Shown here: positions 21,383 through 44,573 of the stretch, in pieces
Layout of the letters: every line of letters begins with the position of its first letter
Numbering within the stretch: the first letter of the stretch is position 1
Assembly (NCBI GenBank): GCA_036655895.1
Contig: JAVVPF010000004.1
Coordinates: 62,848-108,459, forward strand
Length of the DNA: 45,612 nt
Direction of reading: 5' to 3'
From: Cloacibacillus sp.
GTDB taxonomy: Bacteria; Synergistota; Synergistia; Synergistales; Synergistaceae
Translations under genes and position numbers: made by a program
The notes under the pieces: generated by a model
Told to the model about the DNA's origin: nothing
Databases searched by the model: none
Seen by the model: the letters and a program-made list of their open reading frames with translations, nothing else

Positions 21383-21673
21383 CTACAGGATATGCACTCC
21401 TTCGGGATCGAAGGTCTGCTTAGCTCCGATATGTTCTACTCGTTTTTTCCAATTATTCCCCAATTGATAATACCGCAGGCTGTCCGTTTCCGTGTCTATT
21501 ATCTTTTCCAATTTATGGCACAGTTCAAGTCTTTGGGCCTGATCAACAAGACATTCAAAGACAGAGTTCTGAACCCTTTGGCCGTAATCTTCACAGATTT
21601 TAGCAACTCGCCTAAGCCGCTTACGGCCATCTGCAGTTTGCGTGTTGACATCATATGTTATCAGCAACAACAT
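21383..21673 (-). CDS. cas2: Cas2, CRISPR adaptation protein
   Basis: A 96-residue Cas2 of the I-C form: MLLLITYDVNTQTADGRKRLRRVAKICEDYG carries the conserved Asp8, followed by QNSVFECLVDQAQRLELCHKL. It forms the dimer that bridges two Cas1 dimers to integrate new spacers. GAGGA lies 9 nt before the ATG; the gap to cas1 is 12 bp. It is the last gene of the cas operon and abuts the leader. Confidence 0.96.
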   Translation of the reverse strand: MLLLITYDVNTQTADGRKRLRRVAKICEDYGQRVQNSVFECLVDQAQRLELCHKLEKIIDTETDSLRYYQLGNNWKKRVEHIGAKQTFDPEGVHIL

Positions 21674-21685
21674 TTTATCATATCC

Positions 21686-23388: not shown

Positions 23389-23421
23389 TTTTATTTCCCT
23401 CCACGCGTGAGTTAAGCCGTC

Positions 23422-28767: not shown

Positions 28768-29431
28768 AGCTGTCACCTTCTCGCTGTGGATAACTTAGTG
28801 CTCCCTCTTTGATCGGGACGTTCTGAGCAAAGCAGAAACGCGGCTGCGAATCAAATCCGTCGGGAAAAACTTCCATAAGAAGGCTGGGAATGACCATATT
28901 GATATCGCGGCAGCGATGAGTCTCACTCCGCAACGGCCCCAGATAGTCCGGCGCAAATTCGTTCCACCCAAGCGATGGCATCCGATATAACTGGCCTCTC
29001 TTCAGCCTGCGTTCAAATATCGCTTTGTAAGCGTGTCCGGGCGACGTCGTATTGGCGTCCCATTGCTTTGCCTTGTCCGTCATTTTTTCCCTGCCGCAAG
29101 CTAGAGGGCGCGCCTCGGCGTACAATTTATAACAGACGTCGACAAGAATGGTCGCCAGCAGCTGATAGTTTGAGCCGCTGGATATTGCGCTGGAATGTCT
29201 CAGCGGGCCGCCATAGTTGGTAATGTAATTTTCAAACCTAATTGGCGAGCATATTTCGACCCTCTGCGGTATAATGGTTACAGCAGGCCCCCAATTTATT
29301 GATTCGAATATTCCGCGCACCGCAGACGCAGTAGGGACAGTGTAGCTGACAGGAACATCTCCCGTGTCAGGGCGCGTAAACATAGCACAGGGGCCGCTGA
29401 TTTCGCAAGAGATCTCGTAGATTTTTTGCAT
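28757..29431 (-). CDS. cas5c: Cas5c (Cas5d), crRNA-processing Cascade subunit
   Basis: A 224-residue Cas5 of type I-C. YEISCEISGPCAMFTRPDTGDVPVSYTVPTASAVRGIFESINW is the N-terminal ferredoxin-like fold with the glycine-rich region further on; YKAIFERRLKRGQLYRMPSLGWNEFAPDYLGP is the typical C-terminal stretch. In I-C there is no Cas6: this protein cuts the pre-crRNA below the repeat stem and stays on the 5' handle. It is the first gene of the operon, with AAGGAGG 10 nt before the ATG. Confidence 0.95.
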   Translation of the reverse strand: MQKIYEISCEISGPCAMFTRPDTGDVPVSYTVPTASAVRGIFESINWGPAVTIIPQRVEICSPIRFENYITNYGGPLRHSSAISSGSNYQLLATILVDVCYKLYAEARPLACGREKMTDKAKQWDANTTSPGHAYKAIFERRLKRGQLYRMPSLGWNEFAPDYLGPLRSETHRCRDINMVIPSLLMEVFPDGFDSQPRFCFAQNVPIKEGALSYPQREGDSYAQ

Positions 29432-29940: not shown

Positions 29941-30867
29941 CTACACCCTCTCCCCGTTCACCTTCACCTCTACTCCGGACAATTTTTTGAATAGCTGCGC
30001 TTTTTGGCGCATGTGGTGGGCCTCGGGGGTCTTTACGTCGGGCAGGAGGTAGGTTTTTTCGAGGCGTTTGTAGGTTTCGGCGCCTAGTTTGTGATATGCC
30101 AGAAATTCCATGAAGCGCAGTTTTTTTATGCCTTTTACTATTTCGGCAAGCTCCGCGATATCTTCGTCCGCGTCGTTTATTCCTGGGATGAGCGGGGTGC
30201 GCGTCACAATGCCTATGTTATTTTTGGAGGCGTCCGCGCGGCGGATGTTTTCTAAAATAAGGCCGTTGCCTATGCCTGTCAGTTCTTTGTGGCGGGCGTT
30301 GTTTGGGTGTTTGATGTCAACGTGCAGAAGCGACAGAAGCGGCAGAAGCGGTTCTATCTCGCTCCACGGCGCGTGAAAGCTGCTTTCCATCGCGCAGTCG
30401 ATGCCGCGTTTTGCGCAGCCTTCAAAGACTTCGCGCACGAAGGCGCTCTGCATAAGCGGCTCACCGCCGCTTATTGTGACGCCGCCGCCTGAGTGGAAGT
30501 AAAAAAGCTCGTCTTTTGCTATTTCGCGCACGGCCTCGTCCGCCGTCATCTGAAAACCGTATCCGGCGACCGCGGCCGACGGACAAATTTTGACGCATTC
30601 AAGGCAGCCGACGCACTTCGCAGCGTCAATTTCAGGGCGTCCGCCGCGCATCGTTATAGCCGCGCGTGCGCAGCTTTGCGCGCATTTGCCGCAGCCGGTG
30701 CATTTGTCACGGTTTATGCCTCGCTCCGGCTCCACGCGCTGAGACTCCGGCGTCGAGCACCAGAGGCAGCGCAGCGGGCAGCCCTTCAGGAAGAGGACGG
30801 TGCGAAGACCGTCCCCGTCGTATATTGAGCTTTTTTCTATTCTTAGGACGCTTCCCTTTGACGCCAT
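29941..30867 (-). CDS. glycyl-radical enzyme activase with ferredoxin insert
   Basis: A 308-residue radical-SAM activase: N-terminal RIEKSSIYDGDGLRTVLFLKGCPLRCLWCSTPES with the CxxxCxxC cluster, a two-cluster ferredoxin insert (CTGCGKCAQSCARAA and CVGCLECVKICPSAA), then HSGGGVTISGGEPLMQ. The SAM-binding and C-terminal strands (LHVDIKHPNN, RTPLIPGINDADEDI, FLAYHKLGAETY) are complete. It begins 4 bp after the stop of the glycyl-radical gene at 30872 and has almost no ribosome site of its own (AAGG only 2 nt away), so it probably depends on coupling. It most likely activates that enzyme. Confidence 0.88.
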   Translation of the reverse strand: MASKGSVLRIEKSSIYDGDGLRTVLFLKGCPLRCLWCSTPESQRVEPERGINRDKCTGCGKCAQSCARAAITMRGGRPEIDAAKCVGCLECVKICPSAAVAGYGFQMTADEAVREIAKDELFYFHSGGGVTISGGEPLMQSAFVREVFEGCAKRGIDCAMESSFHAPWSEIEPLLPLLSLLHVDIKHPNNARHKELTGIGNGLILENIRRADASKNNIGIVTRTPLIPGINDADEDIAELAEIVKGIKKLRFMEFLAYHKLGAETYKRLEKTYLLPDVKTPEAHHMRQKAQLFKKLSGVEVKVNGERV

Positions 30868-30871
30868 CGCC

Positions 30872-33277
30872 TTAGCCGCAGCTGACGCAGTTGTCGTGCT
30901 GGACGGTCCTCGCTATTATGTCATCCTGCACCTCTTTGCCAAGCTCTACGAAGAAGGCAGTGTAGCCGGCGACGCGGACGAGGAGATTTCTGTATTCTTC
31001 CGGGCGCGCCTGAGCCTCAAGCAGTTTCTTCTGGTCTACGACGTTGAACTGCACGTGATAGACGCCAAGCGAGCAGAGGCTTTTGAGCATCGCCATTACC
31101 TGACGAATGCCGTTTTCGTTGTTTATCATCTCCGGGTCGAGCTTCATGTTAAGAAGCGTGCCCTGCACAAAGCGGTCGTGCGGGATGTTGGCCACCGATT
31201 TCAGCACAGCGGTGGGGCCGTTGAGGTCCGTGCCGCCGCTTGGGCTTACGCCGTCGGCGAGCGGCTTTCCAGCGCGGCGTCCCGACGGGAGCGCCCCAAC
31301 TTCGACGCCAAATGGGGTGTTGCCGGAGACTGGCAGGATGCCTGGGGTCATGACGCCGAATTTGCTCCTGTAGCTTTCTATCTCGTCCGCAATATAGGAG
31401 AAGAGCTCCGCCGCAAGGCCGTCGACGGCTGTGTCGTCGTTGCCGAATTTCGGCGCTTCACAGCAGGCTTTGAGCACTTCGGGGGAGTCCTCGAAATCGC
31501 AGGAGAGCGCGTTCAGAAGGCCCGCCATCGTGACGCTCTTCGTATCGTAGACGAGATGTTTTATCGCGGCCACGCTGTTTATGAGGTCAGATACGCCGAT
31601 GCAGATTATGCCGTTTCCGGTGTTGTATTTCGCACCGCCCCAGGCGTAGTCTTTCGCGTTTTCGATACATTCTTCGAAGCTTACAGAGAGCGCGGGCACG
31701 GGGCGTTCAAGGCATATTTCGTCGATGATGTGGCTTGCCTTGACGACGACCTTTATCACGTAATGGAGCTGCGCTTTGAGCGCCGCCATAAAGTCTTCAA
31801 ATGTTCCAAAGCTCGTGGGGTCGCCCGTCTGCGCGCCAGCCAGTTTTCCGCTCTTTCTGCATTTTCCGTTAAGCAGCACAAATTCTACGACGCTGCCGAG
31901 GTTTATGTCCGCAAGCGCCGAATATCCGCGCACTTTTCCTGCGAGGTTCGTCTCGACGCAGCCGCCGGGGTTCCAGTCAAGCGCCTCGCGGATGGGGATG
32001 CCCTTGTTCATCAGCATACGGATGCCAACCTCGTCGTTGTGGAAGGCGGGGAAGCCCGTTCCCATCGCCATGAGTTCTACTATCTTGCGCAGGAAGGAGT
32101 TGGGGTTCTTGGCCATGTTGTAGCGCACGGAAAGCGAGGGCTGGTAAAGCTGCGTATCCATCGTGGCCTGAAGTATCATGTATGAAAGGTCGTTTACCGC
32201 GTCTCGTCCCATCTTGTCTACGCCGCCGGCGCAGAGGTTCTGGAACATCGGGTATCCAGAGGCGTATTCCGCGGACTTTTCATCCTGGAAGAGGCACGGC
32301 TCGGAGAATTTTACCCAGAGGCAGCCGAAAAGTTCCTGCGCCTGTTCTGGCGTAAGGCGTCCCGCCGCTACGTCCGCCTTGTAAAACGGATAGAGGTACT
32401 GGTCCATGCGCCCCGGATTGTAGGCGGCGGCGTTCTGTTCCATGAATATGCATATCTGATAGAAATAGAATGACTGCATCGCCTCGCGGAAGGTGCGCGC
32501 AGGGTAGGCTGGCACGCGGCGGCATATCCGCGCTATTTCGCGAAGCTCCGCTCTGCGCGCGGCCACGGGTTCCGCCGCGGCAAGTCTGTCGGCTTCAGCG
32601 GCGTAGCGTTCGGCAAGCGTCTCCATGCCTTCGCAGACGACAAGCAGCGCGTCAAGATAGACCTCTTTTTCGTAGTCTCCTGGAATGGTGGCGTCCAGCT
32701 TCGCTTTGCGATCAAGTATCCTCTTGCGCAGGCCTTCCACGCCGTTGTTGATGAACCATTCGTAGCCCGCCGTCACCTCGCCCCAGCCGCGCACGGCCTT
32801 TTTGTCGATGTAGAGCGCTCCGTTGTCGCGAAGCGCCGCCACGTCCTGCGGGATGCGCGCAAGCCACTCTTCGTAGTTGGAACGCCCCTTCCAATAGGGA
32901 CGGATTATCTCTTCAAAGTCTTTTTTATCCTCGGGCAGCAGTTTGAACTTGTCGTAGCTGCGCGTATTTATAGTTTCAAGCTCGCGGTCGAGCACCGACC
33001 AGCAGACGTCCGCGGAAAGTATGCCGCCGCGTATCTTGCTGCCGGCGTTTCCAACGATCAGCTCGTCGTCCCATATTTTGACGCTCTTTTCGCGGCACTG
33101 CTTCAGGAAGGCCTTCGCCTTGCGCGTGACGAGGTTCTCCCCCTGAGTTTCTACAAAGCTCTGCGTCAGCAGCTTCGCGTCCTCAAGGTCTATTTCGGGA
33201 TAGGTCTCAAAGACTTTCGCCTTTAGCCTGTTTATGCGTTCCATGTATTTCGGGCTTTTTTCTTCCATATTTTCCAT
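30872..33277 (-). CDS. glycyl-radical enzyme, substrate unassigned (GGCVETN type)
   Basis: A protein of about 801 residues in the pyruvate formate-lyase/glycyl-radical family. The active-site loop is NPGGCVETNLAGKVRGYS with Cys440 and Glu442; the radical loop is RVAGYTAFF with Gly771. The Glu two residues after the Cys is the feature of lyases and dehydratases rather than true pyruvate formate-lyase. The asparagine after GCVET and the following text do not match choline, glycerol, isethionate or hydroxyproline enzymes as I remember them. The protein ends NCVSCG, an unusual CxxC tail beyond the radical domain. GGGAGG precedes the start; GTG (33280) and ATG (33277) are both possible. It follows another glycyl-radical gene after about 14 bp. 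Confidence 0.82.
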   Translation of the reverse strand: MENMEEKSPKYMERINRLKAKVFETYPEIDLEDAKLLTQSFVETQGENLVTRKAKAFLKQCREKSVKIWDDELIVGNAGSKIRGGILSADVCWSVLDRELETINTRSYDKFKLLPEDKKDFEEIIRPYWKGRSNYEEWLARIPQDVAALRDNGALYIDKKAVRGWGEVTAGYEWFINNGVEGLRKRILDRKAKLDATIPGDYEKEVYLDALLVVCEGMETLAERYAAEADRLAAAEPVAARRAELREIARICRRVPAYPARTFREAMQSFYFYQICIFMEQNAAAYNPGRMDQYLYPFYKADVAAGRLTPEQAQELFGCLWVKFSEPCLFQDEKSAEYASGYPMFQNLCAGGVDKMGRDAVNDLSYMILQATMDTQLYQPSLSVRYNMAKNPNSFLRKIVELMAMGTGFPAFHNDEVGIRMLMNKGIPIREALDWNPGGCVETNLAGKVRGYSALADINLGSVVEFVLLNGKCRKSGKLAGAQTGDPTSFGTFEDFMAALKAQLHYVIKVVVKASHIIDEICLERPVPALSVSFEECIENAKDYAWGGAKYNTGNGIICIGVSDLINSVAAIKHLVYDTKSVTMAGLLNALSCDFEDSPEVLKACCEAPKFGNDDTAVDGLAAELFSYIADEIESYRSKFGVMTPGILPVSGNTPFGVEVGALPSGRRAGKPLADGVSPSGGTDLNGPTAVLKSVANIPHDRFVQGTLLNMKLDPEMINNENGIRQVMAMLKSLCSLGVYHVQFNVVDQKKLLEAQARPEEYRNLLVRVAGYTAFFVELGKEVQDDIIARTVQHDNCVSCG

Positions 33278-33291
33278 CACAGTCAGCCTCC

Positions 33292-35670
33292 CTAGTTCAT
33301 CTCTTCGTATTCTGTTCTTGAAATTATCTCGTTCTGAGTGTTTTCGTTGAGCTCCGCGAAATAGGCGCTGTAGCCTGCGACGCGAACGATGAGGTCTCTG
33401 TGCTCCTCGGGGCGGCTCTGCGCCTCACGAAGATCTTCGGACGAGACTATGTTGAATTGTATATGATGGCCGCCCAAATCGCACCATGTGCGCACGTAAT
33501 CCGCGAGGATGGCGGCGGAGTTTGGTGCGGACAGAAGCGACGGCGAGAATTTCTGATTATAAAGGACGCCCTGGAGCACCTCCATGTGGTCTATCTTGCT
33601 CATGGAAAGCACAGCCGCGGTAGGGCCGTTTGTGTCGCGTCCGCCAGCCGGAGAGGCTCCGTCCGAGAAGGGAATGGCCGCCTCTCTTCCGTCGGGCGTG
33701 GCTCCAGTCAGCTCGCCGAAATAGACGTGCGTAGAGACTGAATGCAGCTCCGGTATGTAGAAGCCTCCGCGCATACAGGGATACTGCGTCACTTCGCGGC
33801 AGAAGATATGCGACGCGTCCCGCGCAAGCAGGTCTGCGTAATCGTCGTCGTTGCCGAACTTTGGCGCGGCTTCGCAGAGTTTTTTAACGGCCTCCGCTCC
33901 CGCGAAATTATTTTTGAGCGCGGCAAGCATCGCCTTGGGGCCGACGCTTTCGTCGTCAAAGACGGTCTTTCTCACGGCGGCCATCGCGTCCGCAAGCGAG
34001 GCCAGGCCTACTCCGAAGATGCCGGAGAAGTTGTAACGGACGCCGCCCGCCTGGCGCGTTACGCCAGTCGCGATGCAGTCGTCCAGCATCGCGGAGGTGA
34101 AGGGTTCCGGCGCGTGCGAGGCGTGCGCCCCGTCTATTAGGTCATAGGCGCGTACTATAAGCTCGACGAAGTGCGCCACCTGTTTTTCAAAGGCGCCAAA
34201 CAACCCGTCGAAATCCTTGAAATCTTCAAGGCGTCCCGTATGCGGCCCAACCTGCTTTCCGCTCTCGGGGTCCGCGCCGTCGTTCAAAGCAAGCAGGAAT
34301 GCCTTGGGCAGGTTCACGTAGCCGCCGTTTGAGCGCGAGTCGCAGGCGCCCTCTATGTCCGACTCCACGCAGTTCATGCAGTAGCCGCGCGCCTCTTCGA
34401 GAGTAGCGCCGCGGATGAGGTGTTTTGGGATGATGCAGTTGTCGTTCATCACCGCCGGATAGCCGAGCCCCAGCTTTATCGTCTCGCAGGCCTTGATGAG
34501 CGCGCCCTGGTCGACCTTGTTGTGGTAGCGGAACGAAAGCGACGGCTGCGGAACGCGCGCGATGCCCGCCGCCTCCATGACGAGCTGCGTAAGCTCGTTG
34601 CAGACGTCCTCGCCGCGCGGCCCCTGACCGCCCAGCGTTATATTCTGAAATAGCGGAAAACCGGCGAAGGTGCGCGTCGTCACTGAATCCATCAGCTTTA
34701 TTATCGCAGTGCATTTTATCCATATATGCGCGAGAAGCTCCACAGCCTCTTCATCAGTGAGGACGCCGTCTTCTTTGTCCTTTTTATAGAACGGATACAT
34801 ATACTGGTCAAAACGCCCCAGCAGCATGGCGTGCGGGTCCGCTTCTATCTGAGTGACGACATAGATGAGCCATACGCTTTGCAGCGCCTCGCGGAAACTG
34901 CGCGCGGGATGCTCGGGCACGCGGCGCAGCATAGCCGCAATGTCGGCAAGCTCCGTGCGGCGCTTGTCGTCCGCACATTCGGCGGCGAGCTTTTCCGCCT
35001 CGTCCGCGTAACGATGCGCAAAGGCGATGACCGCTTCGCATGAGATCTTAGCCGCGCGCCAGAAATCCACCTTCGCGCCGTCCGCCGCGCAGGCGGGACG
35101 GAACGTGGAAAGCTTTGCGTCAGCCTCTTCAATGATGCCGCGAAGCCCCTTTTCAAGCAGCTTTTTATTGTTTATCGCAATATTGCCGTGCGCCGTTCCC
35201 TGCGCGCCCACCGTGATCATGTGGTCGGCGATGGCCTCTTTCGTCTCATCGGAAACGAGGCCGTTGGTCACTGAGTCAAGCGAAGCGTCCTGCCAGCCCT
35301 CGAGGCACTTGCGCAGTATCTCCTTATTTTCATCTGTAAGCCCTATTGAGTCCGCGGGACGGTTTGCGAAATTGTCGAGGTCCGCCAGAATCCAGCGCGC
35401 GCCAAGCTCAGGGCAGGCGATGGGCGAACGCGGCTTAGGCGAATTGTGCCCGACGAAAAGCTCCTGCTCGTCGATGAAGAGCGTCATATTTTCGAGCACA
35501 TGACGCAGCGTATAGGCGCGTTTCAAAACAGGCGGTTCCGCTGCCCAGAGCTTGTAGGCCTCTGTGACAAGCAGAGCGCGTTCCGGCAAAAGCTCCGTCG
35601 GGCGCTCCGTTATCATTCTCTTTTTCATGCCGGAAATACGTGATATGGTTTCTTCTCTGCTGGCTCTCAT
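33292..35670 (-). CDS. glycyl-radical enzyme, substrate unassigned (NCVESD type)
   Basis: A 792-residue glycyl-radical enzyme. The active-site loop is GYCMNCVESDIEGACDSRSNGGYVN with Cys434 and Glu436; the radical loop is RVAGYSAYF with Gly766. LLGRFDQYMYPFYKKD carries the conserved aspartate of the dehydratase branch, and GVLYNQKFSPSLL and GGHHIQFNIV are close to HypD-like members, but the asparagine before the catalytic cysteine and aspartate at the end of VESD are unusual. The function is not assigned. I start at the ATG at 35670 because GGGAGGA lies 6 nt upstream, 15 bp into the upstream frame. It follows the short activase by 14 bp. Confidence 0.82.
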   Translation of the reverse strand: MRASREETISRISGMKKRMITERPTELLPERALLVTEAYKLWAAEPPVLKRAYTLRHVLENMTLFIDEQELFVGHNSPKPRSPIACPELGARWILADLDNFANRPADSIGLTDENKEILRKCLEGWQDASLDSVTNGLVSDETKEAIADHMITVGAQGTAHGNIAINNKKLLEKGLRGIIEEADAKLSTFRPACAADGAKVDFWRAAKISCEAVIAFAHRYADEAEKLAAECADDKRRTELADIAAMLRRVPEHPARSFREALQSVWLIYVVTQIEADPHAMLLGRFDQYMYPFYKKDKEDGVLTDEEAVELLAHIWIKCTAIIKLMDSVTTRTFAGFPLFQNITLGGQGPRGEDVCNELTQLVMEAAGIARVPQPSLSFRYHNKVDQGALIKACETIKLGLGYPAVMNDNCIIPKHLIRGATLEEARGYCMNCVESDIEGACDSRSNGGYVNLPKAFLLALNDGADPESGKQVGPHTGRLEDFKDFDGLFGAFEKQVAHFVELIVRAYDLIDGAHASHAPEPFTSAMLDDCIATGVTRQAGGVRYNFSGIFGVGLASLADAMAAVRKTVFDDESVGPKAMLAALKNNFAGAEAVKKLCEAAPKFGNDDDYADLLARDASHIFCREVTQYPCMRGGFYIPELHSVSTHVYFGELTGATPDGREAAIPFSDGASPAGGRDTNGPTAAVLSMSKIDHMEVLQGVLYNQKFSPSLLSAPNSAAILADYVRTWCDLGGHHIQFNIVSSEDLREAQSRPEEHRDLIVRVAGYSAYFAELNENTQNEIISRTEYEEMN

Positions 35671-35684
35671 GCTGCATCCTCCCA

Positions 35685-36449
35685 CTATTTTTGTTCAATT
35701 ATATTAAGGTCGTATTTTTTTAGGATAGTTACCGCGTCGTTGTACTGAGCGTCGCTTGGGGGCAGCGTGTCGGCGAGCGCGTAGTTCCTGCCCAGCTCCT
35801 CATAAAGCCCGACGCCGAGGCGGTGATAACGCAATATTTCAACCGACGCGCCGGGACGCGCAGCCGCTGCGAAGGCACCAAGGCGTTCAAGCTCCTCCTT
35901 CGCGTCATTGCACCCTGGCACAAGCGGAAAACGAAGCAGCGCCGCGGCGTCGCTCTTCAAAATATATTCCGCGCCGCTCAGTATCCCCTCGTTGTCAAAC
36001 CCAGTCAGCTTTTTATGAAGCGACGGGTCCATCGCCTTTATGTCCAACTGGATGAGGTCGGCCTTTTGCGCGACGCGCTTTAAGTCAGCGAGCGGCGCGC
36101 AGAGGCAGCTTTCTATAGCCGTGTGCACGTAATGCGCGCGGCATATATCAAGAAACTCAGCGGCAAATTCAGGCTGAGAGAAGACCTCTCCGCCTGACAG
36201 CGTAATACCGCCGCCAGAGCGCCGCCAAAACGGAGCGTCGCGACTCACCTTTGAAAAAAGTTCGTCCGCAGAGACGACGCTTCCAAAGACCTTCCCACTT
36301 TTTGATTTTTCTATTTCAAAACTTTGAGATTGAGGGCTGCAGCACCAGAGGCACCGCATGGGGCAGCCTTTGAGGAATACCGTGGTCCTTATGCCCGGCC
36401 CGTCGTGGACGGCATATCGAGCAATATTAAAGATCAACCCTTCCGCCAT
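35685..36449 (-). CDS. short glycyl-radical enzyme activase without ferredoxin insert
   Basis: A 254-residue radical-SAM activase. LIFNIARYAVHDGPGIRTTVFLKGCPMRCLWCCSPQS contains the CxxxCxxC cluster; after only about 45 residues it goes into SGGGITLSGGEVFSQPEF. The two extra 4Fe-4S motifs found in most activases of non-PFL enzymes, and in the other two activases here, are absent, so it resembles PflA in layout. GGEVF replaces the more usual GGEP. I start at the ATG at 36449 because GAGGGA lies just upstream; the longer frame starting at 36488 would run through the operator and the leader. It is the first gene of the dual glycyl-radical operon. Confidence 0.85.
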   Translation of the reverse strand: MAEGLIFNIARYAVHDGPGIRTTVFLKGCPMRCLWCCSPQSQSFEIEKSKSGKVFGSVVSADELFSKVSRDAPFWRRSGGGITLSGGEVFSQPEFAAEFLDICRAHYVHTAIESCLCAPLADLKRVAQKADLIQLDIKAMDPSLHKKLTGFDNEGILSGAEYILKSDAAALLRFPLVPGCNDAKEELERLGAFAAAARPGASVEILRYHRLGVGLYEELGRNYALADTLPPSDAQYNDAVTILKKYDLNIIEQK

Positions 36450-36470: not shown

Positions 36471-36493
36471 TGGTAGTACCATAGGCACTACCA
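36471..36493. promoter_or_regulatory. GntR operator at the dual glycyl-radical operon
   Basis: A 23-bp site containing the perfect palindrome TGGTAGTACCA (36471-36481) plus a second half-site CACTACCA. On the minus strand it ends CCTATGGTACTACCA, and 18 of 23 positions are identical to the site at 37766-37788. It lies about 9 bp after the predicted transcription start, a repressor position. Confidence 0.75.
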
Positions 36494-36508
36494 GCGTTTT
36501 ATAAAATC

Positions 36509-36536
36509 ATTATAAAACAATCGTTTGGATTGTCAA
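36509..36536 (-). promoter_or_regulatory. consensus promoter of the dual glycyl-radical operon
   Basis: On the minus strand a perfect TTGACA (36531-36536) and perfect TATAAT (36509-36514) are 16 bp apart. A promoter this strong usually needs tight repression, consistent with the adjoining operator. The start would be near 36502, about 50 bp upstream of the activase ATG. Confidence 0.85.
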
Positions 36537-36655
36537 GCAATAACGACAAGAAGAAAAAGCGTAAACGGGCCGTCTGTGTATGACCTTAAACCGCCTTTTC
36601 AGCACGGAAGGCCGGGTCGTGCCTCGACGCCGCGCGCAGGGAGCAAAAAAGAATC

Positions 36656-36720
36656 AAAAAAGCTGCCGCGCGGCTGCGAAATGCGCTTGTCAAAACGCCT
36701 TTGCGCCCGAATGCGGCAGC
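36656..36720 (-). terminator. terminator of the GntR regulator gene
   Basis: On the minus strand GCTGCCGC (36713-36720) pairs with GCGGCAGC (36662-36669) around a structured loop and is followed by six T. It lies about 33 bp past the regulator's stop and separates it from the operon downstream. Confidence 0.7.
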
Positions 36721-36752
36721 TCATAAAACAAATGGAGGCTGTGGCCTGCGGC

Positions 36753-37526
36753 CTACTCTTTTACCATAGACCAATAGGGGCTGGAAATTGCCTTGATCAT
36801 CTCGGGATGTTTTTTTATCATCACCTGGACAGACTCAAGCATGTGCCTCTGCAAAGTATCTCCGGCCAGTGCGGAATTTTTATCCTCAATGGCCTTTATT
36901 ATGACCGCGTGGTCGGACTGAAGCTTCTGCATCCAGCCCGCTTCGTGCATAAGGTTTGGGTGGACCAGCATGTTGTTGCGCTCGACGAGGCTGTTGATGC
37001 TTTCGTTGAGGCGCGAAAGAATCGGATTGTGCGCCGCCTCTGTGACGAGGTTGTGAAGGAGCGCCTCCCACTTTCCGTTCTGCGTAAGCTCCTCCGGCGT
37101 GCCGTACGGGCAGGCGGCAAAATTCTCGTAGCATTCATGCAGTTTTACGATATCCTCGTCCGTCCTGCGCTGCGCTGCAAGGCGCGCCGCCGGCACGGAG
37201 ATTATCGTCCTCACCTCAAGCTGATACGACACAAAATCCGCCGGCAGCATTTGCAGGCTCTGAAGGGAGTCCAGCATCCCAAATTCCTTGAGGCTCCTTA
37301 TGAAGATGCCCTGACGTTCGCGCACCTCGATGATGCCCTCCGCCGCAAGAGAGATGACCGCTTCGCGCAGAACGTTTCTGCTCACGCTGAGCATCTGAGC
37401 CAGCTCCCTCTCCGAGGGGAGCTTGTCGCCCTCTTTAAGAGTGTTGGAATCTATCAGTTCGCGCAGTTTTTCCAGAACGATCGTCTTTTTGCTATCTTTT
37501 TTCTCCGCAGCGTTGATATTGAACAT
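36753..37526 (-). CDS. GntR-family (FadR/FCD class) regulator of the dual glycyl-radical regulon
   Basis: A 257-residue regulator. The winged helix spans about residues 16-80: VLEKLRELIDSNTLKEGDKLPSERELAQMLSVSRNVLREAVISLAAEGIIEVRERQGIFI. The FCD-type helical domain follows (EVRTIISVPAARLAAQRRTDEDI, WEALLHNLVTEAAHNPILSRLNESI, DHAVIIKAIEDKNSALAGDTLQRHMLESV) with the histidines that commonly bind a metal and a carboxylate ligand. Neighbouring operators of the TGGTNNTACCA kind fit a GntR/FadR site. It is monocistronic, lying between the two promoters that share its probable operator, so it likely represses both and itself. The ribosome site (GGGGGG) is only moderate. Confidence 0.87.
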   Translation of the reverse strand: MFNINAAEKKDSKKTIVLEKLRELIDSNTLKEGDKLPSERELAQMLSVSRNVLREAVISLAAEGIIEVRERQGIFIRSLKEFGMLDSLQSLQMLPADFVSYQLEVRTIISVPAARLAAQRRTDEDIVKLHECYENFAACPYGTPEELTQNGKWEALLHNLVTEAAHNPILSRLNESINSLVERNNMLVHPNLMHEAGWMQKLQSDHAVIIKAIEDKNSALAGDTLQRHMLESVQVMIKKHPEMIKAISSPYWSMVKE

Positions 37527-37628
37527 GGCGCCCCCCGCTCATCCCGTTTCAGGGAAAGATTATCCGCTAATTTTTTCCAGTAAAGCATAATTGTTGCCAT
37601 ATAAGTATAGCTGAATTTTAAAAACAAG

Positions 37629-37643
37629 CCAGTGGCAATACCA
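37629..37643. promoter_or_regulatory. possible autoregulatory operator upstream of the GntR gene
   Basis: On the minus strand TGGTATTGCCACTGG matches the corresponding part of the site at 36471-36493 at 12 of 15 positions. It lies about 105 bp upstream of the regulator's ATG, next to TTGTTT, a possible -35. Confidence 0.45.
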
Positions 37644-37726
37644 GTAGGTTTATATCACTTTTAAATAAGAATGTCACCTCTGTCTATATAAATAAATTGT
37701 ACAGTTTCAACTCAAAATTTAAATAC

Positions 37727-37755
37727 TTGACGTCCGTTGAATCAGATGCTATATT
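37727..37755 (+). promoter_or_regulatory. promoter of the saccharopine-dehydrogenase-like gene
   Basis: TTGACG (37727-37732) and TATATT (37750-37755) are 17 bp apart, with the start expected near 37762, about 100 bp upstream of the ATG. Confidence 0.75.
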
Positions 37756-37765
37756 CTATCCACGC

Positions 37766-37788
37766 TGGCTGAACCTATGGTACTACCA
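37766..37788. promoter_or_regulatory. GntR operator at the saccharopine-dehydrogenase-like gene
   Basis: The last 15 bases, CCTATGGTACTACCA, and the first three are identical to the minus-strand site at the dual glycyl-radical operon (18 of 23 in all). It contains the palindrome TGGTACTACCA at 37778-37788 and starts about 4 bp after the predicted transcription start. Confidence 0.75.
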
Positions 37789-37864
37789 AATTTCAGCAAA
37801 AGGTATACAGCGTATCCATAAAGCTCTGTATTTATAATCTATTACTCAAATAGGGGGAGTTCAC

Positions 37865-39043
37865 ATGGCATCAAAGAAAAAGGCACTACAGATCGGCGCG
37901 GGTATGGTAGGACGCTGCATCATCCATGATATGATCAGCGATTTTGATTTCGTTGTACTGGATATGAGCGAGGACAATCTTGCGGAGGCAAGACGTCTTT
38001 TCCCGGGAGTCCAGACTGTACAGGGTTCCGCCACCGATAAGGAACTTATTGCTAAACTTTCTGAGGACTGCGACATCATCACAGCGGCAATGCCCGGCAC
38101 CGTTGGCTACAAAGTGACGCAGATCGCTATGGAGCTTGGAAAGAAACTTGCCAACGTCTCCAGCATGCACGGCCGCGCTGACGCCCCCTTCCATGAGATC
38201 GGACTGGAAACGGGCGGACTTGGCATTTCCATGATAGGCTTCGAGCCCGGAATGAGCAACTTCTTCGGCGGCCGCGGCTACTACAAGCTCGACAAATGCG
38301 AAGAGATGTACGTATATGTCGGCGGCGGTCTTCCCGTTGATCCGCGCCCCCCGTTCAACTACTTCACAACATGGTCGATCTCTGACAACCTCAACCAGTT
38401 CAACCAGCCCACAACAGTTGTGCGCGAAGGCAAAGAGATGGTCATCCCCGCGCTCAGCGAAGTTATGGACTTTGCAATAGAAGATTTCAAGCACCTTGAG
38501 TGCTTCACCAGCAACGGACTGGGCAGCCTCTTCCGCAGCTTCCACGACGTGCCCGAGATGGCGGCCTACACCGTACGCTGGCCCGGACTCGCCGCGCAGA
38601 TGCGCCTCCTCAACGAGCTGAACCTCTTCGACAAGGAAGAGAGAATGCTCGGCAAAGTGAAGCAGGTCCCCCGCGACATCCTCATCGACGTATTCTCAAA
38701 GGCCTATGAGCGTCAGCCCGGCGAAGTCGACATGTCTGTCATGAAGATCGTCGTAAAGGGCATCAAAGACGGCGACCGCGTCACCTACACATGGGAGATC
38801 GCGCAGAAAGAGATCCCCGAGACCGGTTACACCTCAATGGCATGGACGACGGCCTGCACCTGCGGAATATTCGCGCGCGCGATGGTCGAAGGCAAGCTGA
38901 CCGGCAAGGGAATGCTCTCCGCAGAGCATCTTGCGAAGGATGACGAGTTCTACAACTGGGTCATGGCGGAGCAGGCAAAGCGCGGCATTTTCTACAAAGA
39001 AAAGGTCGAAGTCGAAAAGAACGTAGCTCTCTGGGAAAAATAG
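37865..39043 (+). CDS. saccharopine/lysine-dehydrogenase-like oxidoreductase
   Basis: A 392-residue Rossmann protein of the saccharopine dehydrogenase superfamily. ALQIGAGMVGR gives the GxGxxG loop (residues 11-16), DFVVLDMSEDNL the acidic end of strand 2 that favours NAD(H), and DIITAAMPGTVGYKVTQIAMELGKKLANVS the following motif. The second half (GFEPGMSNFFGGRGYY, VRWPGLAAQMRLLNELNLF) matches lysine 6-dehydrogenase and carboxynorspermidine-dehydrogenase-like members. These oxidise or reductively aminate at an amino-acid imine; the exact substrate is open. GGGGGAG lies 5 nt before the ATG. It shares an operator with the dual glycyl-radical operon, so its substrate is probably made or used by those enzymes. 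Confidence 0.75.
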   Translation: MASKKKALQIGAGMVGRCIIHDMISDFDFVVLDMSEDNLAEARRLFPGVQTVQGSATDKELIAKLSEDCDIITAAMPGTVGYKVTQIAMELGKKLANVSSMHGRADAPFHEIGLETGGLGISMIGFEPGMSNFFGGRGYYKLDKCEEMYVYVGGGLPVDPRPPFNYFTTWSISDNLNQFNQPTTVVREGKEMVIPALSEVMDFAIEDFKHLECFTSNGLGSLFRSFHDVPEMAAYTVRWPGLAAQMRLLNELNLFDKEERMLGKVKQVPRDILIDVFSKAYERQPGEVDMSVMKIVVKGIKDGDRVTYTWEIAQKEIPETGYTSMAWTTACTCGIFARAMVEGKLTGKGMLSAEHLAKDDEFYNWVMAEQAKRGIFYKEKVEVEKNVALWEK

Positions 39044-39053
39044 AATAAACGAC

Positions 39054-39092
39054 GCGCAGACGGGAAGAGGCAACTTCTCGTCTGCGCTTTGT
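39054..39092 (+). terminator. rho-independent terminator
   Basis: GCGCAGACG (39054-39062) pairs with CGTCTGCGC (39079-39087), the stem continuing through GAAG/CTTC, followed by TTTGTT. It ends the dehydrogenase-like gene; the A/T-rich 39093-39240 should hold the next promoter, but no clear -35/-10 pair was found. Confidence 0.75.
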
Positions 39093-39256: not shown

Positions 39257-40750
39257 ATGGATGCAACTGTAGCAAAGCAGATAGAAGCAGCACTGGAGTA
39301 CGTGGCATGGACGGTATTATGGAATAAATATTTTGCGATAATGTTCCTTTTGCTCGGCCTTTATCTTACTATCGGAACTCGTTTTTTTCAGATCAGAAGG
39401 TTCGGAGACATTTTTTCAAACACACTCGGCGGACTTTTCCGTAAAAAAGATCCAAACGCAAAGGTAAGCAAGGTTTCATCATTCGGCGCATTCGCCACAG
39501 CTCTTGGCGGAACGGTCGGCAACGGCAACATCGCGGGCGTAGCAAGCGCTATCGCGATCGGCGGCCCCGGCGCTCTCTTTTGGATGTGGATGGCGGCAGT
39601 CGTCGGCATGGTTACGAAGATGAGCGAAATAATCCTGGCTCAGCAGTACAAACAGCGTTATGAAGACGGCACCTCCTACGGCAGCGCCGCCTTCTATATA
39701 CAGAAGGCTCTCATCGAAGGCAAGGGCTGGAAATGGTGCAAGATACTCTCAGGACTCTTCACAGCCACGATGATAGGCTCCTTCTATTTCGCGCCTGGCC
39801 CCTACACGATAGTCGAAGCTTTGCAGAGCGCCTTTAAGCTCTCCGGCACCGCGGCGATCTGCTGCGCCATCGCCTACACGGGCGTATGCTACATAATCGT
39901 CCTCGGAGGCATCCCGCGCATCGTAAAGTTCGCAGAAAGCGCGGTCCCCGCAATGGTGCTCGCCTATCTCGCAGCCGGACTTTTCATCATCTTCAAAAAT
40001 ATCCCGGAAACGATCATCGCGATAAAATCCATCTTCTACTATGCCTTTAACCCATACGCGGCAATCGGCGGATTTGCTGGAGTCACGGTCATGAAGGTAG
40101 TGCAGGTCGGCGTCGCAAGAAGCGTTTACAGCAACGAAGCCGGCTGGGGCAGCTCGCCCATCATCCACGCGGCGGTTGACGTAGACCATCCCGGACGTCA
40201 GGGACTTTGGGGCGCGATGGAAGTATTCATGGACACGATGGTCGTCTGCACGGTGACGGGGCTCATGGTCATCATCACAGGCGCGTGGCAAACGGGACGC
40301 GGCGGCGCGGGCTCTGTCGGCGAAGCTCTTGGAATGGCCTTCGGCGGATACGCTCCCCACATGCTCGCCTTCTTCATGATAATCTTCTCGCTGACGACGA
40401 CTACGGGCTGGTTCTCATATCTTGAATCGCTCATCGTCTACTGCGTCTCCAAAAAGTCGCACGAGGAGCGCATGAAGTATGTGAAGTTTGTCCGCTACAC
40501 CGGCCCGCTGGTACCCCTCTGCGTCTCCATGTTCTTCTTCTATCACGGAACGGTTCCTTCGGTGGTGTGGATGATGCTCGACATACAGTCAGCTCTTCCC
40601 GTCTACGTAAACGTGATAGCGCTGACGCTGCTTTCGCCGATCATCTTCAAGCTTGTACGCGAATTTGAAACGAACTATCTTGACCCTGAAAAGACCGCCC
40701 GCAAGGCTGCGAAACTTTCAGGCGCCAAAGACGCGCTGCCGGAAGAATAG
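39257..40750 (+). CDS. sodium:alanine (amino acid) symporter, AGCS family
   Basis: A 497-residue polytopic membrane protein. The family signatures are clear: FGAFATALGGTVGNGNIAGVASAIAIGGPGALFWMWMAAVVGM in the first third and RSVYSNEAGWGSSPIIHAA in the middle, with TTTGWFSYLESLIVY near the end; about ten hydrophobic helices are visible. AGCS carriers take up alanine, glycine or similar small amino acids with Na+. AGGAGG lies about 10 nt before the ATG. It heads a same-strand group with a PpnP-like protein, dipeptidase, MFS transporter and ProC-like reductase. Confidence 0.9.
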   Translation: MDATVAKQIEAALEYVAWTVLWNKYFAIMFLLLGLYLTIGTRFFQIRRFGDIFSNTLGGLFRKKDPNAKVSKVSSFGAFATALGGTVGNGNIAGVASAIAIGGPGALFWMWMAAVVGMVTKMSEIILAQQYKQRYEDGTSYGSAAFYIQKALIEGKGWKWCKILSGLFTATMIGSFYFAPGPYTIVEALQSAFKLSGTAAICCAIAYTGVCYIIVLGGIPRIVKFAESAVPAMVLAYLAAGLFIIFKNIPETIIAIKSIFYYAFNPYAAIGGFAGVTVMKVVQVGVARSVYSNEAGWGSSPIIHAAVDVDHPGRQGLWGAMEVFMDTMVVCTVTGLMVIITGAWQTGRGGAGSVGEALGMAFGGYAPHMLAFFMIIFSLTTTTGWFSYLESLIVYCVSKKSHEERMKYVKFVRYTGPLVPLCVSMFFFYHGTVPSVVWMMLDIQSALPVYVNVIALTLLSPIIFKLVREFETNYLDPEKTARKAAKLSGAKDALPEE

Positions 40751-40781
40751 GCGAAGAATTTTAAGAAAATATAATTTCAAT

Positions 40782-40811
40782 GGGGAGAGGATTTTTCTTC
40801 TCCTCATTTTT
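40782..40811 (+). terminator. weak terminator or attenuator after the symporter gene
   Basis: GGGGAGAGG (40782-40790) pairs with CTTCTCCTC (40797-40805) using two G-T pairs, followed by ATTTTT. Its position just before the next ribosome site suggests it reduces rather than blocks read-through. Confidence 0.5.
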
Positions 40812-40827
40812 GCAAAGGAGAATGACT

Positions 40828-41142
40828 ATGAGTGAGTTTGTTAAATCTGTTGACGTAAAGACGCTGGTTAATATTTATTGTGAGGGCAAGGTGCAGAGCC
40901 GCACTCTGAGATACCCCGACGGCAGGCTCCAGACGCTGGGCGTATATCTTCCTGGCGAGTTTGAGTTCCATTCGGACGGCGCGGAAACCGTCGTCATGAC
41001 GGCGGGCGCGGTCGAAGTATTTTTCCCGCAGGAGAACTGCTGGCGTCTTGTGAAGACCGGCGAATCCTACGACGTTCCAGAAAACACAGTATTTAAGGTG
41101 CGCTGCTCCGAAATATCGGAATACGTCTGCGATTTCCTGTAG
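40828..41142 (+). CDS. ppnP: PpnP-like pyrimidine/purine nucleoside phosphorylase
   Basis: A 104-residue single-domain cupin of the PpnP (YaiE, DUF1255) family: TLGVYLPGEFEFHSDGAETVVMTAGAVEVFFP and the following GESYDVPENTVFKVRCSEISEYVCDFL match the family along its length. PpnP phosphorolyses a range of nucleosides. The start is the ATG at 40828, 7 nt after AAGGAG; an ATG at 40822 would leave a 1-nt gap. It is 6 bp upstream of the dipeptidase gene. What a nucleoside phosphorylase does in an amino-acid cluster is not obvious. Confidence 0.8.
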   Translation: MSEFVKSVDVKTLVNIYCEGKVQSRTLRYPDGRLQTLGVYLPGEFEFHSDGAETVVMTAGAVEVFFPQENCWRLVKTGESYDVPENTVFKVRCSEISEYVCDFL

Positions 41143-41148
41143 AAAAAA

Positions 41149-42555
41149 ATGGACGCCAAACTGGACAGACTGGTAAAGTCATATCTTCCGAAGCTGGTTC
41201 AATGCGTCTGCGAAAGCACGCAGATAGCTAGCCTCTATAAAGAGGACGCAAGCGGCTTTCCCTACGGGCTTGAAATAGCGCGCGCCGCCGACCACGCGAT
41301 GGGCTGCGCGCAACACTTAGGCTTTACCGTGCGCGACCTTGACGGCAAAGTCTGCTGGGCCGAGTACGGAGAGGGCGACGAATACGTGGCGGCGATGGGC
41401 CATCTCGACGTCGTACCCCCGGGAGAGGGCTGGGTCTTCGATCCTTTCTGCGGCCAGGTGAAGAACGGCTACATTCTGGGCCGCGGCACGCAGGACGACA
41501 AAGGGCCGCTTTTTTCAACGCTCTTTGCCTTGAAGGCGGTGGCTGAGCTTGGCGTCCCCCTTTCAAAGAGGGTGCGTATAATTTTCGGCATGGACGAGGA
41601 AAGCGGCAAGATGCGCGACGTCGCGGCCTATCTCGCGTCGGAAAAGCCGCCCCTCTACGCCTTTACGCCGGACGGGGCCTACCCCGTCGTCAACACCGAA
41701 AAGGGAACTATAAAGTTCAAAGGCCGCGCCAGCTTTTCAGACGGAACCGAGGCGCCGCTTCGGCTAGAGAGCGTCTCGGGTGGAGAATCCCTTGGCTCCG
41801 TTCCCGCGCACGCGGAGGCGGTGCTTGTTGGCGCGCGCTCCGCGCTTGACGCGGCGGCGGCCATTCTTGCCAAGGCGGCGCGCACAAAGGGCTGGGAAAT
41901 CTCGCTGCGTTCAGAAGAGGGGCGCCTCACTCTTGCAGTCGCCGGCAAAGCGGCACACGCGACGCTTCCGTCACTTGGGGCAAACGCCGCGGGCAGGCTC
42001 CTTGTTCTGCTTAACAAAGCGAAGCTTGAAGGCGAAGCGGGCGCTTTCATCGAATTTCTCGCCACAAAGTTCGGCGTTGAGTCCGACGGCGCCTCTTTAG
42101 GCATCAAGGCCTCGCATCTGCACTGCGGCAACATCACGGTGAACCTCGCCATGATCGAGGGCGACGCCTCCGGCATGACCGTCACCTGCGGCATATACAT
42201 CCCCGCGGAGACCATTACCTTCGACCAGGTGCGCACCGTCATGTGCGATAATTTTACGCAGGCCGGCGCGAGCTTTGAACCGTTCGCCGAGACCGCGCCT
42301 ATGTACTACTCGCCGAACCATCCGCTCATAAAGACGCTCCAGGCGGGCTATTCCAACGCCACGGGCAAAGAGGCGACGCTGGTCAGCATGTGCGGCGGCA
42401 CGTATTCAAAGAGAATGCCGAACATGGTCCCCTACGGCGCCACCTTTGACGACGAGGACGACCGCGCGCACGGCGCGAACGAACGTCTGCTCATAACAAA
42501 CCTGATGGAGAGCACGCGGCTCATGGCCTACGCCATCTGGGAAATGGCAAAATGA
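41149..42555 (+). CDS. M20-family metallodipeptidase (PepV-like)
   Basis: A 468-residue di-zinc peptidase of family M20. Ligands and catalytic residues are in place: His85-x-Asp87 in AMGHLDVVPPGEGW, Asp116 in RGTQDDKGP, Glu150/Glu151 in FGMDEESGK, Asp in AFTPDGAYPVVNTEKG and the C-terminal histidine in DDRAHGANERL. The lid domain lies at about residues 190-340. PepV-type enzymes release amino acids from dipeptides, often with an N-terminal beta-Ala or D-residue. There is no clear Shine-Dalgarno in the 6-bp gap after ppnP, so translation is likely coupled. It overlaps the next gene by 4 bp (ATGA). Confidence 0.88.
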   Translation: MDAKLDRLVKSYLPKLVQCVCESTQIASLYKEDASGFPYGLEIARAADHAMGCAQHLGFTVRDLDGKVCWAEYGEGDEYVAAMGHLDVVPPGEGWVFDPFCGQVKNGYILGRGTQDDKGPLFSTLFALKAVAELGVPLSKRVRIIFGMDEESGKMRDVAAYLASEKPPLYAFTPDGAYPVVNTEKGTIKFKGRASFSDGTEAPLRLESVSGGESLGSVPAHAEAVLVGARSALDAAAAILAKAARTKGWEISLRSEEGRLTLAVAGKAAHATLPSLGANAAGRLLVLLNKAKLEGEAGAFIEFLATKFGVESDGASLGIKASHLHCGNITVNLAMIEGDASGMTVTCGIYIPAETITFDQVRTVMCDNFTQAGASFEPFAETAPMYYSPNHPLIKTLQAGYSNATGKEATLVSMCGGTYSKRMPNMVPYGATFDDEDDRAHGANERLLITNLMESTRLMAYAIWEMAK

Positions 42556-43730
42556 CGGACAACTTCGGAGATATCCGAAGAGCTTATAAATATATACTGA
42601 TATTTTTCCTCATCACCTTCATTAGCGCCTCTTTGGAGAGCGGCTACTACTTTCTGCTGCCGTACCTTGAAGGCAGCGGGATAGCGGCGGGGCTTCTTGG
42701 AGGCGCTGCGATGGGGGTCTGTTACGGCGTCTCTTTCGTCATCCGTCCGTTTATACCTGCGGTGGAACAGAGGATCGGGGACGAATGGATGCTGCGCTGC
42801 GGCTATATCTGCTTTTTTATAAGCGCCGCAGGCGTGGCAGCCGCCGCTGTTTCGATAAATCAGGTTATTTTTTGGCGGGGGCTTGCGGGCCTAGGGCTGA
42901 GCATGGTGGGCGTCTCGCTCACCGCCTATGAGAGAGAATTTATACCGGAGCACATAAGGGGCTACAGCATCGCGCTCATCACCACCGCGTACAGCCTGCC
43001 GTCGCTCGTCGTCGTGCCTCCGATGGAATATTTGATAGGACACGGCTTTTTTAAGACATATATCTTCTTTTTCCCGCTTCTCGTAGCAGTTGGCTTTTGG
43101 GCGGTTCTGAGGCTGCCCGGCATAAAAGGCGGCGGCGCGCAGGAAAATGAGGAAAAGGCGCTCTCCTACGCCGCGCTGCTCAAAGAGCCGAAGATACAGC
43201 TTTTTGCGCTCTCCGCCGCGCTCTTTGCCCTGACGGACGCGGGCCAGCTCACGTTCGTCCAACTGGCGAAGGAGATAGGGATGGCCGCCTCATATTTTTT
43301 CAGCGTATCTGCGGCTACGGCGCTCATCTTCAGGATCTTCTGCGGACGGCTGATAGACCTGCTTCCGCGAAAGATATGCGCCTCGGGCGCATGCGCTCTT
43401 ACGGCGGCTATGATGTTTACGATGACATTCGCCTCTACGCCAGCCGCGCTTATGATATGCGGCTTCCTCTTCGGCGTTGGGATGGGCTTCGGCTACCCCG
43501 CCTTTATGTGCATGACGCTTGATTTGGGCGGCAGAAAAAACGTGACGCGGCTTGCGGTCATATTCGGCCTCATCTATTCGGGACTTTTCTTCCTTACGCC
43601 GGTGGCGATGGAATTTTTGATAAAGCTGACCGGCGGCGCAGGGCCCGCCTACAGGCTCTTATATTTATCGGTGTTCGTAATATCCTCAGCACTCGTTCCA
43701 GTGAGCGCGAGGGTTTATAGATCAAATTAA
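42552..43730 (+). CDS. major facilitator superfamily transporter
   Basis: A 392-residue protein with about 12 hydrophobic helices in the MFS two-bundle layout and a central basic/charged loop (KGGGAQENEEKALSYAALLKEPK, about residues 195-217). The loop after helix 2 (IRPFIPAVEQRIGDEWMLRCGY) takes the place of the G-x-x-x-D-R MFS motif. The substrate cannot be read from sequence; placement between a dipeptidase and a ProC-like reductase suggests a peptide or amino-acid-derived compound, either imported or exported. It is translationally coupled to the dipeptidase gene. Confidence 0.8.
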   Translation: MTDNFGDIRRAYKYILIFFLITFISASLESGYYFLLPYLEGSGIAAGLLGGAAMGVCYGVSFVIRPFIPAVEQRIGDEWMLRCGYICFFISAAGVAAAAVSINQVIFWRGLAGLGLSMVGVSLTAYEREFIPEHIRGYSIALITTAYSLPSLVVVPPMEYLIGHGFFKTYIFFFPLLVAVGFWAVLRLPGIKGGGAQENEEKALSYAALLKEPKIQLFALSAALFALTDAGQLTFVQLAKEIGMAASYFFSVSAATALIFRIFCGRLIDLLPRKICASGACALTAAMMFTMTFASTPAALMICGFLFGVGMGFGYPAFMCMTLDLGGRKNVTRLAVIFGLIYSGLFFLTPVAMEFLIKLTGGAGPAYRLLYLSVFVISSALVPVSARVYRSN

Positions 43731-43754
43731 AATCTAAAAACAGGAGTGGTTATT

Positions 43755-44573
43755 ATGAAGATAGGATTCATGGGTTCAGGCGCCATCGCGGAGATTTTGA
43801 GCCAGAAGATCACGGCAAGCGGAGCCGCCAAGGCGAAAGATATTTTCCTCTATGACGTAAGCACGGAACGTCTTGCCTATATGAACGAGAAGTACGGCCT
43901 TTCGACCTGCGCGAAGCCGGGCGACATGGTTGCGGCGGCGGATTATGTCTTTATGTGCGTCCGCTCTGACAACGCCATCGAAATGGCGCGCACACTGTCC
44001 GCCTACGACTTCTCCGGCAAGGCGATAGTCTCGATTTCCTCCGGCATTCCCATGGCGCTCTATGAGAAGAACGTCCCGGGAGCCGCGGTAGCGCGCGCGC
44101 TGCCGAACCCGCCCAGCCGCATCGGACACGGCGTCGTAGCCGTCGCCTTCAACAACAAAATATCCGACGCCCAGAAGGCCGACCTCATGACGATCTTTGA
44201 GAGCATGGGCGTCTGCGTCGCGCTCGGCGAAGACAAGATCAACGCCATCACCTCTCTCACAGGCCCGGCGCCCGTCTACGCCTTCTTCCAGGGCATCGTG
44301 GAATCCGCGCTGCTTCTTGGCATAGACCACAAGAACGCCGCTAAGATGGCCTTCGGCACAATCGAAGGATGCCTCAAAGTCTGGGAGAACAACAAGGACA
44401 ACATCGGCGGCCTGCTTGCAGAGACAAGCACCCCCGGCGGCATCTCCGTGCGCCAGCTCTACAACCTCGAGCAGAACGCCTTCAAAGCGACGGTCAAGGA
44501 ATGCTACGAAGAGGGCTTCCTCAGAACAAAGGCCTACAGCGACAGCATCTCGCAGATGCTTAACGAAGAGTAG
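43755..44573 (+). CDS. proC: pyrroline-5-carboxylate reductase-like protein
   Basis: A 272-residue ProC-family protein. MKIGFMGSGAIAEILSQKI is the nucleotide loop; ALPNPPSRIGHGVVAV matches the M-P-N-x-P motif; SLTGPAPVYAFFQGIVESALLLGI and LLAETSTPGGISVRQLYNLEQNAFKATVKECYEEG give the dimerisation/substrate domain with the P5CR signature. ProC reduces 1-pyrroline-5-carboxylate to proline; related proteins reduce piperideine-carboxylates. In this window a HypD-like enzyme could make its substrate. I start at the ATG at 43755, 8 nt after AGGAG; the GTG at 43746 is unlikely. Confidence 0.85.
   Translation: MKIGFMGSGAIAEILSQKITASGAAKAKDIFLYDVSTERLAYMNEKYGLSTCAKPGDMVAAADYVFMCVRSDNAIEMARTLSAYDFSGKAIVSISSGIPMALYEKNVPGAAVARALPNPPSRIGHGVVAVAFNNKISDAQKADLMTIFESMGVCVALGEDKINAITSLTGPAPVYAFFQGIVESALLLGIDHKNAAKMAFGTIEGCLKVWENNKDNIGGLLAETSTPGGISVRQLYNLEQNAFKATVKECYEEGFLRTKAYSDSISQMLNEE

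Follow-up and report, generated by a model that had tools for sequence, protein, structure and literature searches.

A double-palindrome operator and a predicted GntR regulon around two glycyl radical enzymes in Cloacibacillus

Genes, promoters and operators of the locus

The window analysed here is a 45,612-nucleotide stretch of a Cloacibacillus sp. genome (contig JAVVPF010000004.1) in which a regulatory gene lies between two divergently transcribed gene sets. The regulator is a GntR-family protein of 257 residues (36753-37526, minus strand) that consists of an N-terminal GntR helix-turn-helix domain (PF00392, 72.5 bits) and a C-terminal FCD effector domain (PF07729, 66.9 bits), the arrangement of the FadR subfamily; the closest named model, LldR, matches it with 117.6 bits, far under the cut-off of 311. 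Four genes on the minus strand encode two glycyl radical enzymes (GREs) and their radical SAM activating enzymes, namely activase A, which lacks a Fer4 insert (35685-36449), GRE-A, a 797-residue member of an orphan clade (33292-35685), GRE-B (802 residues, 30872-33280) and activase B, which has Fer4 domains (29941-30867). On the plus strand, sdh (37865-39043) encodes a saccharopine-/lysine-dehydrogenase-like NAD(P) oxidoreductase of 392 residues with matches to PF16653 (133.4 bits, C-terminal) and to the NADP domain PF03435 (30.5 bits) and no NCBIfam equivalog above cut-off. A strong intrinsic terminator with a 14-bp stem (39054-39087, plus strand) lies 3' of sdh, so this gene may be transcribed mostly alone. 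It is followed on the same strand by genes for an AGCS sodium:amino-acid symporter (39257-40750), a Ppnp-like small protein (40780-41142), a PepV-like M20 dipeptidase (41149-42555), an MFS transporter (42552-43730) and a ProC-like reductase of the pyrroline-5-carboxylate reductase family (43746-44573), which scores 144.6 bits, under the equivalog cut-off of 196.75. This agcS-ppnp-pepV-mfs-proC order is much alike in three relatives (G015, G028 and G019). Elsewhere the window (17287-29431) carries a CRISPR-Cas locus of Type I-C, whose long array has the repeat CTTTTAATCCACGCGGTCCTTGCGGATCGCGAC and whose Cas8c matches one PADLOC model only and no Pfam or NCBIfam model.

A preliminary description of this DNA had placed nearly the same 23-bp site just past two strong divergent promoters, and both the promoters and the sites are borne out. 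The sigma-70 promoter of the GRE operon (36509-36536, minus strand) reads TTGACA-16-TATAAT and scores 12/12, and that of sdh (37727-37755, plus strand) reads TTGACG-17-TATATT with a TG 5' of the -10 hexamer and scores 10/12. Operator 1 (36471-36493, minus strand) lies 16 nt past the -10 hexamer, ahead of the GRE-operon start codon, while operator 2 (37766-37788, plus strand) lies 10 nt past the -10 hexamer of the sdh promoter. Set in one register, the 23-mers TGGTAGTACCATAGGCACTACCA (36471-36493, plus strand) and TGGTAGTACCATAGGTTCAGCCA (37766-37788, minus strand) agree at 19 positions, one more than the 18 of 23 previously counted. Exact copies of CCTATGGTACTACCA are located at 36471-36485 (minus strand) and 37774-37788 (plus strand), and with up to three mismatches this 15-mer has two matches in the window against 0.24 expected. 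The listed GTG start of activase A at 36488 falls within operator 1. A GGGAAG sequence precedes the ATG at 36449, which is the likely start codon, and operator 1 would therefore sit in the 5' leader.

Each operator is composed of two 11-bp FadR-type palindromes at 12-bp spacing, one being TGGTANTACCA and the other a weaker copy. Written out in full, one site is TGGTAGTACCA-T-AGGCACTACCA; the other, read on the opposite strand, is TGGTAGTACCA-T-AGGTTCAGCCA. The TGGTASTACCA core at both promoters, which is kept in relatives, fits the TKGT-3 nt-ACMA consensus of the FadR subfamily (Suvorova et al. 2015, PMC4494728), a subfamily for which weaker boxes beside a main site are also on record (PMC4494728). 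A third, weaker site, TGGTATTGCCACTGGCTTGTTTT, is found upstream of the GntR gene (operator 3, 37621-37643, minus strand), where the preliminary description had seen one, although it matches the CCTATGGTACTACCA-type 15-mer at 11 rather than 12 of 15 positions. Operator 3 is a putative, probable site of autoregulation of the GntR gene.

Conservation and genome-wide occurrence of the operator

Orthologs of the regulator, the GREs and Sdh were gathered from related genomes and searched for TGGTANTACCA-like sites. We then scored the window with a matrix built from 16 sites of seven other Synergistia genomes, none of them from the genome under study. Operator 2 (30.7 bits) and operator 1 (26.4 bits) took the top two ranks; in 60 simulated windows the top score had a mean of 11.1 (sd 2.1) and reached 18.2 at most. 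Operator 3 came third with 15.6 bits, a score that alone is not significant against this window-wide null. Support for it as a putative site comes from its position and from its recurrence across genomes, its core TGGTATTGCC being found before gntR in G015, G028 and G024. Six genomes with the cluster that were absent from the matrix served as a held-out test, for which the 95% null level was 15.9. Five of the six carry a site above this level where their GRE operon begins (G039, 20.7; G060, 22.9; G061, 22.9; G165, 16.5; G173, 18.8), and G049, at 13.0, stays below it. The eight genomes that built or tested the matrix are related, and owing to this shared ancestry their sites are not fully independent trials. 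At nearly all sites compared across genomes, the operator comes shortly after a promoter that resembles TTGACA/TATAAT.

The genome-wide search for TGGTASTACCA suggested earlier returned two exact places only in the 2.9-Mb genome, operators 1 and 2. The reversed control of the motif occurs three times, which means that the 11-mer alone is not rare and that the 23-mer and its conservation carry the weight. That the 11-mer is no rarity beside its control is what speaks for a chance likeness of the two promoter regions, an explanation to which we give next to no credence and which we rejected on the scores from a matrix trained on other genomes only and on the held-out genomes.

A pattern scan of the genome for the double motif, covering up to two mismatches at 12-bp spacing only, yielded a single further good match, on contig C9 (TGGTAGTACCTAAGGTTCATCCA); a two-mismatch site at position 117801 of contig C1 was dropped, as it is located inside a coding gene. 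The C9 operator lies 13 nt past a TTGACT-17-TATATT promoter and before oppBCDFA, which encodes an oligopeptide ABC transporter. The five opp genes are 77-87% identical to those of an opp operon in G015 that is positioned between sdh and gntR and has an operator of its own, and orthologs of the C9 genes carry the operator in two relatives. In the whole-genome pattern scan the site did not turn up broadly ahead of unrelated genes, the outcome that the preliminary description had named as counting against the regulon, and the opp operon fits as an unexpected member. The members listed in the preliminary description stand, but the list was incomplete without this operon on another contig. A GTATAC palindrome follows shortly 3' of the operator at the promoters of sdh and of opp (37803-37808 in the window; about 8590 in L187; 523 and 7239 in L092; 9904 in L093; 432 in L094) and is absent at the GRE promoters.

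With the regulator as query the genome gives 12 matches (E<=0.001), and half sites are alike within the FadR subfamily (PMC4494728), so the operators might belong to another FCD-type GntR paralog or serve several. We consider this very improbable, since 12 of the 13 genomes with GRE-A have an ortholog of the regulator close to the GRE cluster, often in divergent orientation and with the operator in between, and gntR itself has a matching site upstream. The earlier view that a common operator joins the regulator gene and the GRE operon to sdh holds, with the same layout in relatives. Taken together, the operator and its regulon are almost certainly real, and the predicted regulon comprises the GntR gene, the activase-GRE-A-GRE-B-activase operon, sdh and the oligopeptide transporter.

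Sequence relationships of GRE-A and GRE-B

Orthologs of GRE-A (E<=1e-200) are encoded in 13 of 180 Synergistia genomes and, in all 13, adjacent to GRE-B; G024 has GRE-B alone, with operators. A scan of named bacterial genomes for GRE-A revealed one close relative, a Synergistaceae MAG. In the tree GRE-A is sister to the glycerol/propanediol dehydratases, with best identities of 41% to glycerol dehydratase 1r8w and 39% to propanediol dehydratase 9rco, and it keeps the catalytic Cys, Glu and Gly residues while the substrate residues of these enzymes are replaced. In glycerol dehydratase, His164, His281, Ser282 and Asp447 are the residues that ligate the substrate. Of the four, only His281 is kept in GRE-A orthologs; the equivalents of His164, Ser282 and Asp447 are Asn, Ala and Asn/His in all of them, and we rejected an assignment as glycerol dehydratase. 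By these sequence comparisons GRE-A is an uncharacterised clade that no characterised group takes in.

The preliminary description had called both GREs orphans, which is upheld for GRE-A but not for GRE-B. GRE-B is 62.9% identical to PDB entry 8id1, titled N-methyl-cis-4-hydroxy-L-proline dehydratase, a level of identity (63%) that does not fix the substrate in the glycyl radical enzyme superfamily, and 48.7% identical to 8iof, an N-methyl-cis-4-hydroxy-D-proline enzyme. In the tree it joins 8id1 before 8iof (support about 1.0), and the catalytic Cys-x-Glu and glycyl radical loops are present (Cys441, Glu443 and Gly772). We mapped the contact residues of the hydroxyproline dehydratase HypD (PMC7077986) onto GRE-B; at these columns, which derive from HypD rather than from 8id1, GRE-B equals 8id1 in all but one, the exception being a Ser to Ala change in the column of HypD Ser334. 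In GRE-B, 8id1 and 8iof alike, Glu occupies the column of HypD His160. A substrate of the N-methyl-4-hydroxyproline class is somewhat more likely than not. Predicted models of the two GREs had pLDDT values of 47 and 52, with shallow alignments and unreadable pockets; Foldseek supplied the titles of the closest entries only, and closeness was judged from sequence.

HypD itself was rejected as an identity for either enzyme because the equivalents of its essential Asp278, Asp339 and His160 are replaced in both; the NCBIfam HypD model scores the two at 585.6 and 596 against a cut-off of 1100. A true HypD is encoded in the window at 5581-7941, with an FCD-GntR gene of its own.

The genome also encodes a GRE-B paralog on contig C7 (L189:1914-7955) that is 68% identical to GRE-B and 63.6% identical to 8id1. 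It is neighboured by an activase, a ProC-family gene, a DcuC-type transporter and an HbpS-like protein, the cluster further holds another regulator-like gene and an aminoacyl-tRNA editing domain protein, and a scan of this cluster for the regulon operator found none. As the paralog is equally close to 8id1, GRE-B or the paralog may have another substrate. This equal distance of two paralogs and the Ser to Ala change in GRE-B are consistent with the same regulon and operator serving another cyclic hydroxy amino acid, such as free cis-4-hydroxy-L-proline, a hydroxyproline betaine or a hydroxypipecolate, GRE-B having drifted from the activity of 8id1. The identity of GRE-B and 8id1 at all other mapped contact columns and the Glu that they share with 8iof at the His160 column argue against such a drift, and we regard it as rather unlikely, though the strongest of the alternatives.

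Five MttB-family proteins are encoded in the genome, and in G025 a URO-D-type methyltransferase and RACo are encoded between the regulator and a TRAP transporter. Proline betaine is among the quaternary amines that members of the MttB family demethylate (PMC8604678). These proteins hint, short of proof, at methylated substrates, and they would also suit methylated precursors of another cyclic substrate; within the regulon in the window we found no methylation gene. Contigs C6, C8, C18 and C35 encode four members of PF09338, the family of glycine/proline/betaine-type reductases, such that Stickland-type reductases could use a proline-like product.

A predicted regulon for methylated hydroxyproline use

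From the computed operators and promoters, their conservation, the gene content and the family of GRE-B, the explanation that we favour, with confidence moderately above even, is that of FCD-GntR operators governing a regulon for the uptake and breakdown of N-methylated 4-hydroxyproline. The FCD-domain GntR repressor encoded between operators 1 and 2 would bind both, and the position of the sites suggests that two dimers on one operator would cover the transcription start. In the absence of inducer, which may be the substrate or a product, the activase A-GRE-A-GRE-B-activase B operon would be silenced, as would sdh, with some read-through to agcS-ppnp-pepV-mfs-proC, the distant oppBCDFA and, weakly, the regulator's own gene. 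The protein families point to a route in which N-methylated 4-hydroxyproline, free or peptide-borne, would be imported and GRE-B would eliminate water to yield an iminium of the N-methyl-pyrroline-5-carboxylate type, to be reduced by the ProC-like enzyme (or by Sdh, or by OCD-type enzymes in some relatives), while GRE-A would act on a related substrate, for example another stereoisomer or methylation state. We infer the order of these steps, as well as the inducer. One regulator probably exerts joint control over two oxygen-sensitive GREs, the gene of an imine-handling enzyme and a distant peptide transporter, perhaps to let an anaerobe feed on an unusual methylated hydroxyproline.

The importer differs among genomes, being of the Opp type in G000, G015 and G028, of the TRAP type in G008, G024, G025, G039, G049, G061 and G173 and of the branched-chain ABC type in G060 and G165, and an EamA exporter gene is often near the cluster. 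ProC-family genes are found both in the sdh operon and in the cluster of the GRE-B paralog. A gene of the OCD/mu-crystallin family, which takes in pyrroline-2-carboxylate reductases, adjoins the G061 cluster and, in G019, the sdh operon. The recurrence of enzymes of the ProC, Sdh or OCD type in these gene neighbourhoods makes the imine-type chemistry that had been suggested likely.

The preliminary description had further suggested an amino acid or amine as substrate of the GREs, with a product that passes through Sdh; in a strong form of this proposal the substrate would be lysine-like and the passage through Sdh obligatory. In its favour are the operator, which precedes sdh in all four genomes that have the sdh operon beside the GRE module (G000, G015, G028 and G019), and the nearest solved structure of Sdh, PH1688 (3abi). 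These four are, however, only 4 of the 13 genomes with GRE-A, and in most of the 13 GRE-A, GRE-B and the operator occur without the sdh operon, so that Sdh would be an accessory member, and an obligatory passage of the radical product through it is borne out only in part. Moreover, GRE-B belongs to a hydroxyproline-type family, and a second sdh-agcS pair on contig C5 (L104:9353-12385; 72% and 66% identical, the pair being present also in G028) is apart from any GRE and had no operator that we could find. We therefore judge the lysine-like substrate unlikely, well below another cyclic hydroxy amino acid, and retain of the proposal the operator in common. As the enzyme that reduces the product, the ProC-like protein encoded at 43746-44573 deserves at least equal weight with Sdh.

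GREs open up hard anaerobic reactions, and many are without a known substrate; where a conserved operator connects an orphan GRE with defined transporters, imine-reducing enzymes and a second GRE whose family is known, the orphan's possible substrates shrink to a short, testable list. If correct, the favoured explanation would show how amino-acid-fermenting Synergistia switch on the use of methylated hydroxyprolines. We put forward tentatively, a little short of even confidence, that GRE-A is a new kind of GRE with an undescribed substrate and reaction, that it and an N-methyl-hydroxyproline dehydratase, both under one repressor, act in series or in parallel, and that the pair together with Sdh, ProC or OCD enzymes forms a new anaerobic route for methylated hydroxyprolines.

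In its combination of a GntR helix-turn-helix with an FCD domain and of TGGT-3 nt-ACCA sites, and in having these sites at promoters both of catabolic genes and of the regulator's own gene, the system resembles FadR-subfamily repressors such as LldR, PdhR and GlcC (PMC4494728), but here the second box is a near-full palindrome at 12-bp spacing that is conserved across genera. HypR of Streptomyces coelicolor, a FadR-subfamily repressor of L-hydroxyproline catabolism, is likewise an FCD-type GntR protein that represses catabolism of a hydroxyproline-type amino acid, repression in our case being a prediction; it differs in its DNA motif and in serving an aerobic pathway (epimerase and D-hydroxyproline dehydrogenase) that has no glycyl radical enzymes (PMC6608401). 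Among the enzymes, HypD is also a GRE eliminase, and the nearest solved relatives of GRE-A, the B12-independent glycerol and propanediol dehydratases (1r8w and 9rco), have the Cys-x-Glu and Gly loops in common with it. The enzymes of Intestinibacter bartlettii (8id1) and Clostridium sp. FS41 (8iof) fall in the same clade as GRE-B, which, unlike them, is encoded together with a second GRE and a second activase under a FadR-type operator.
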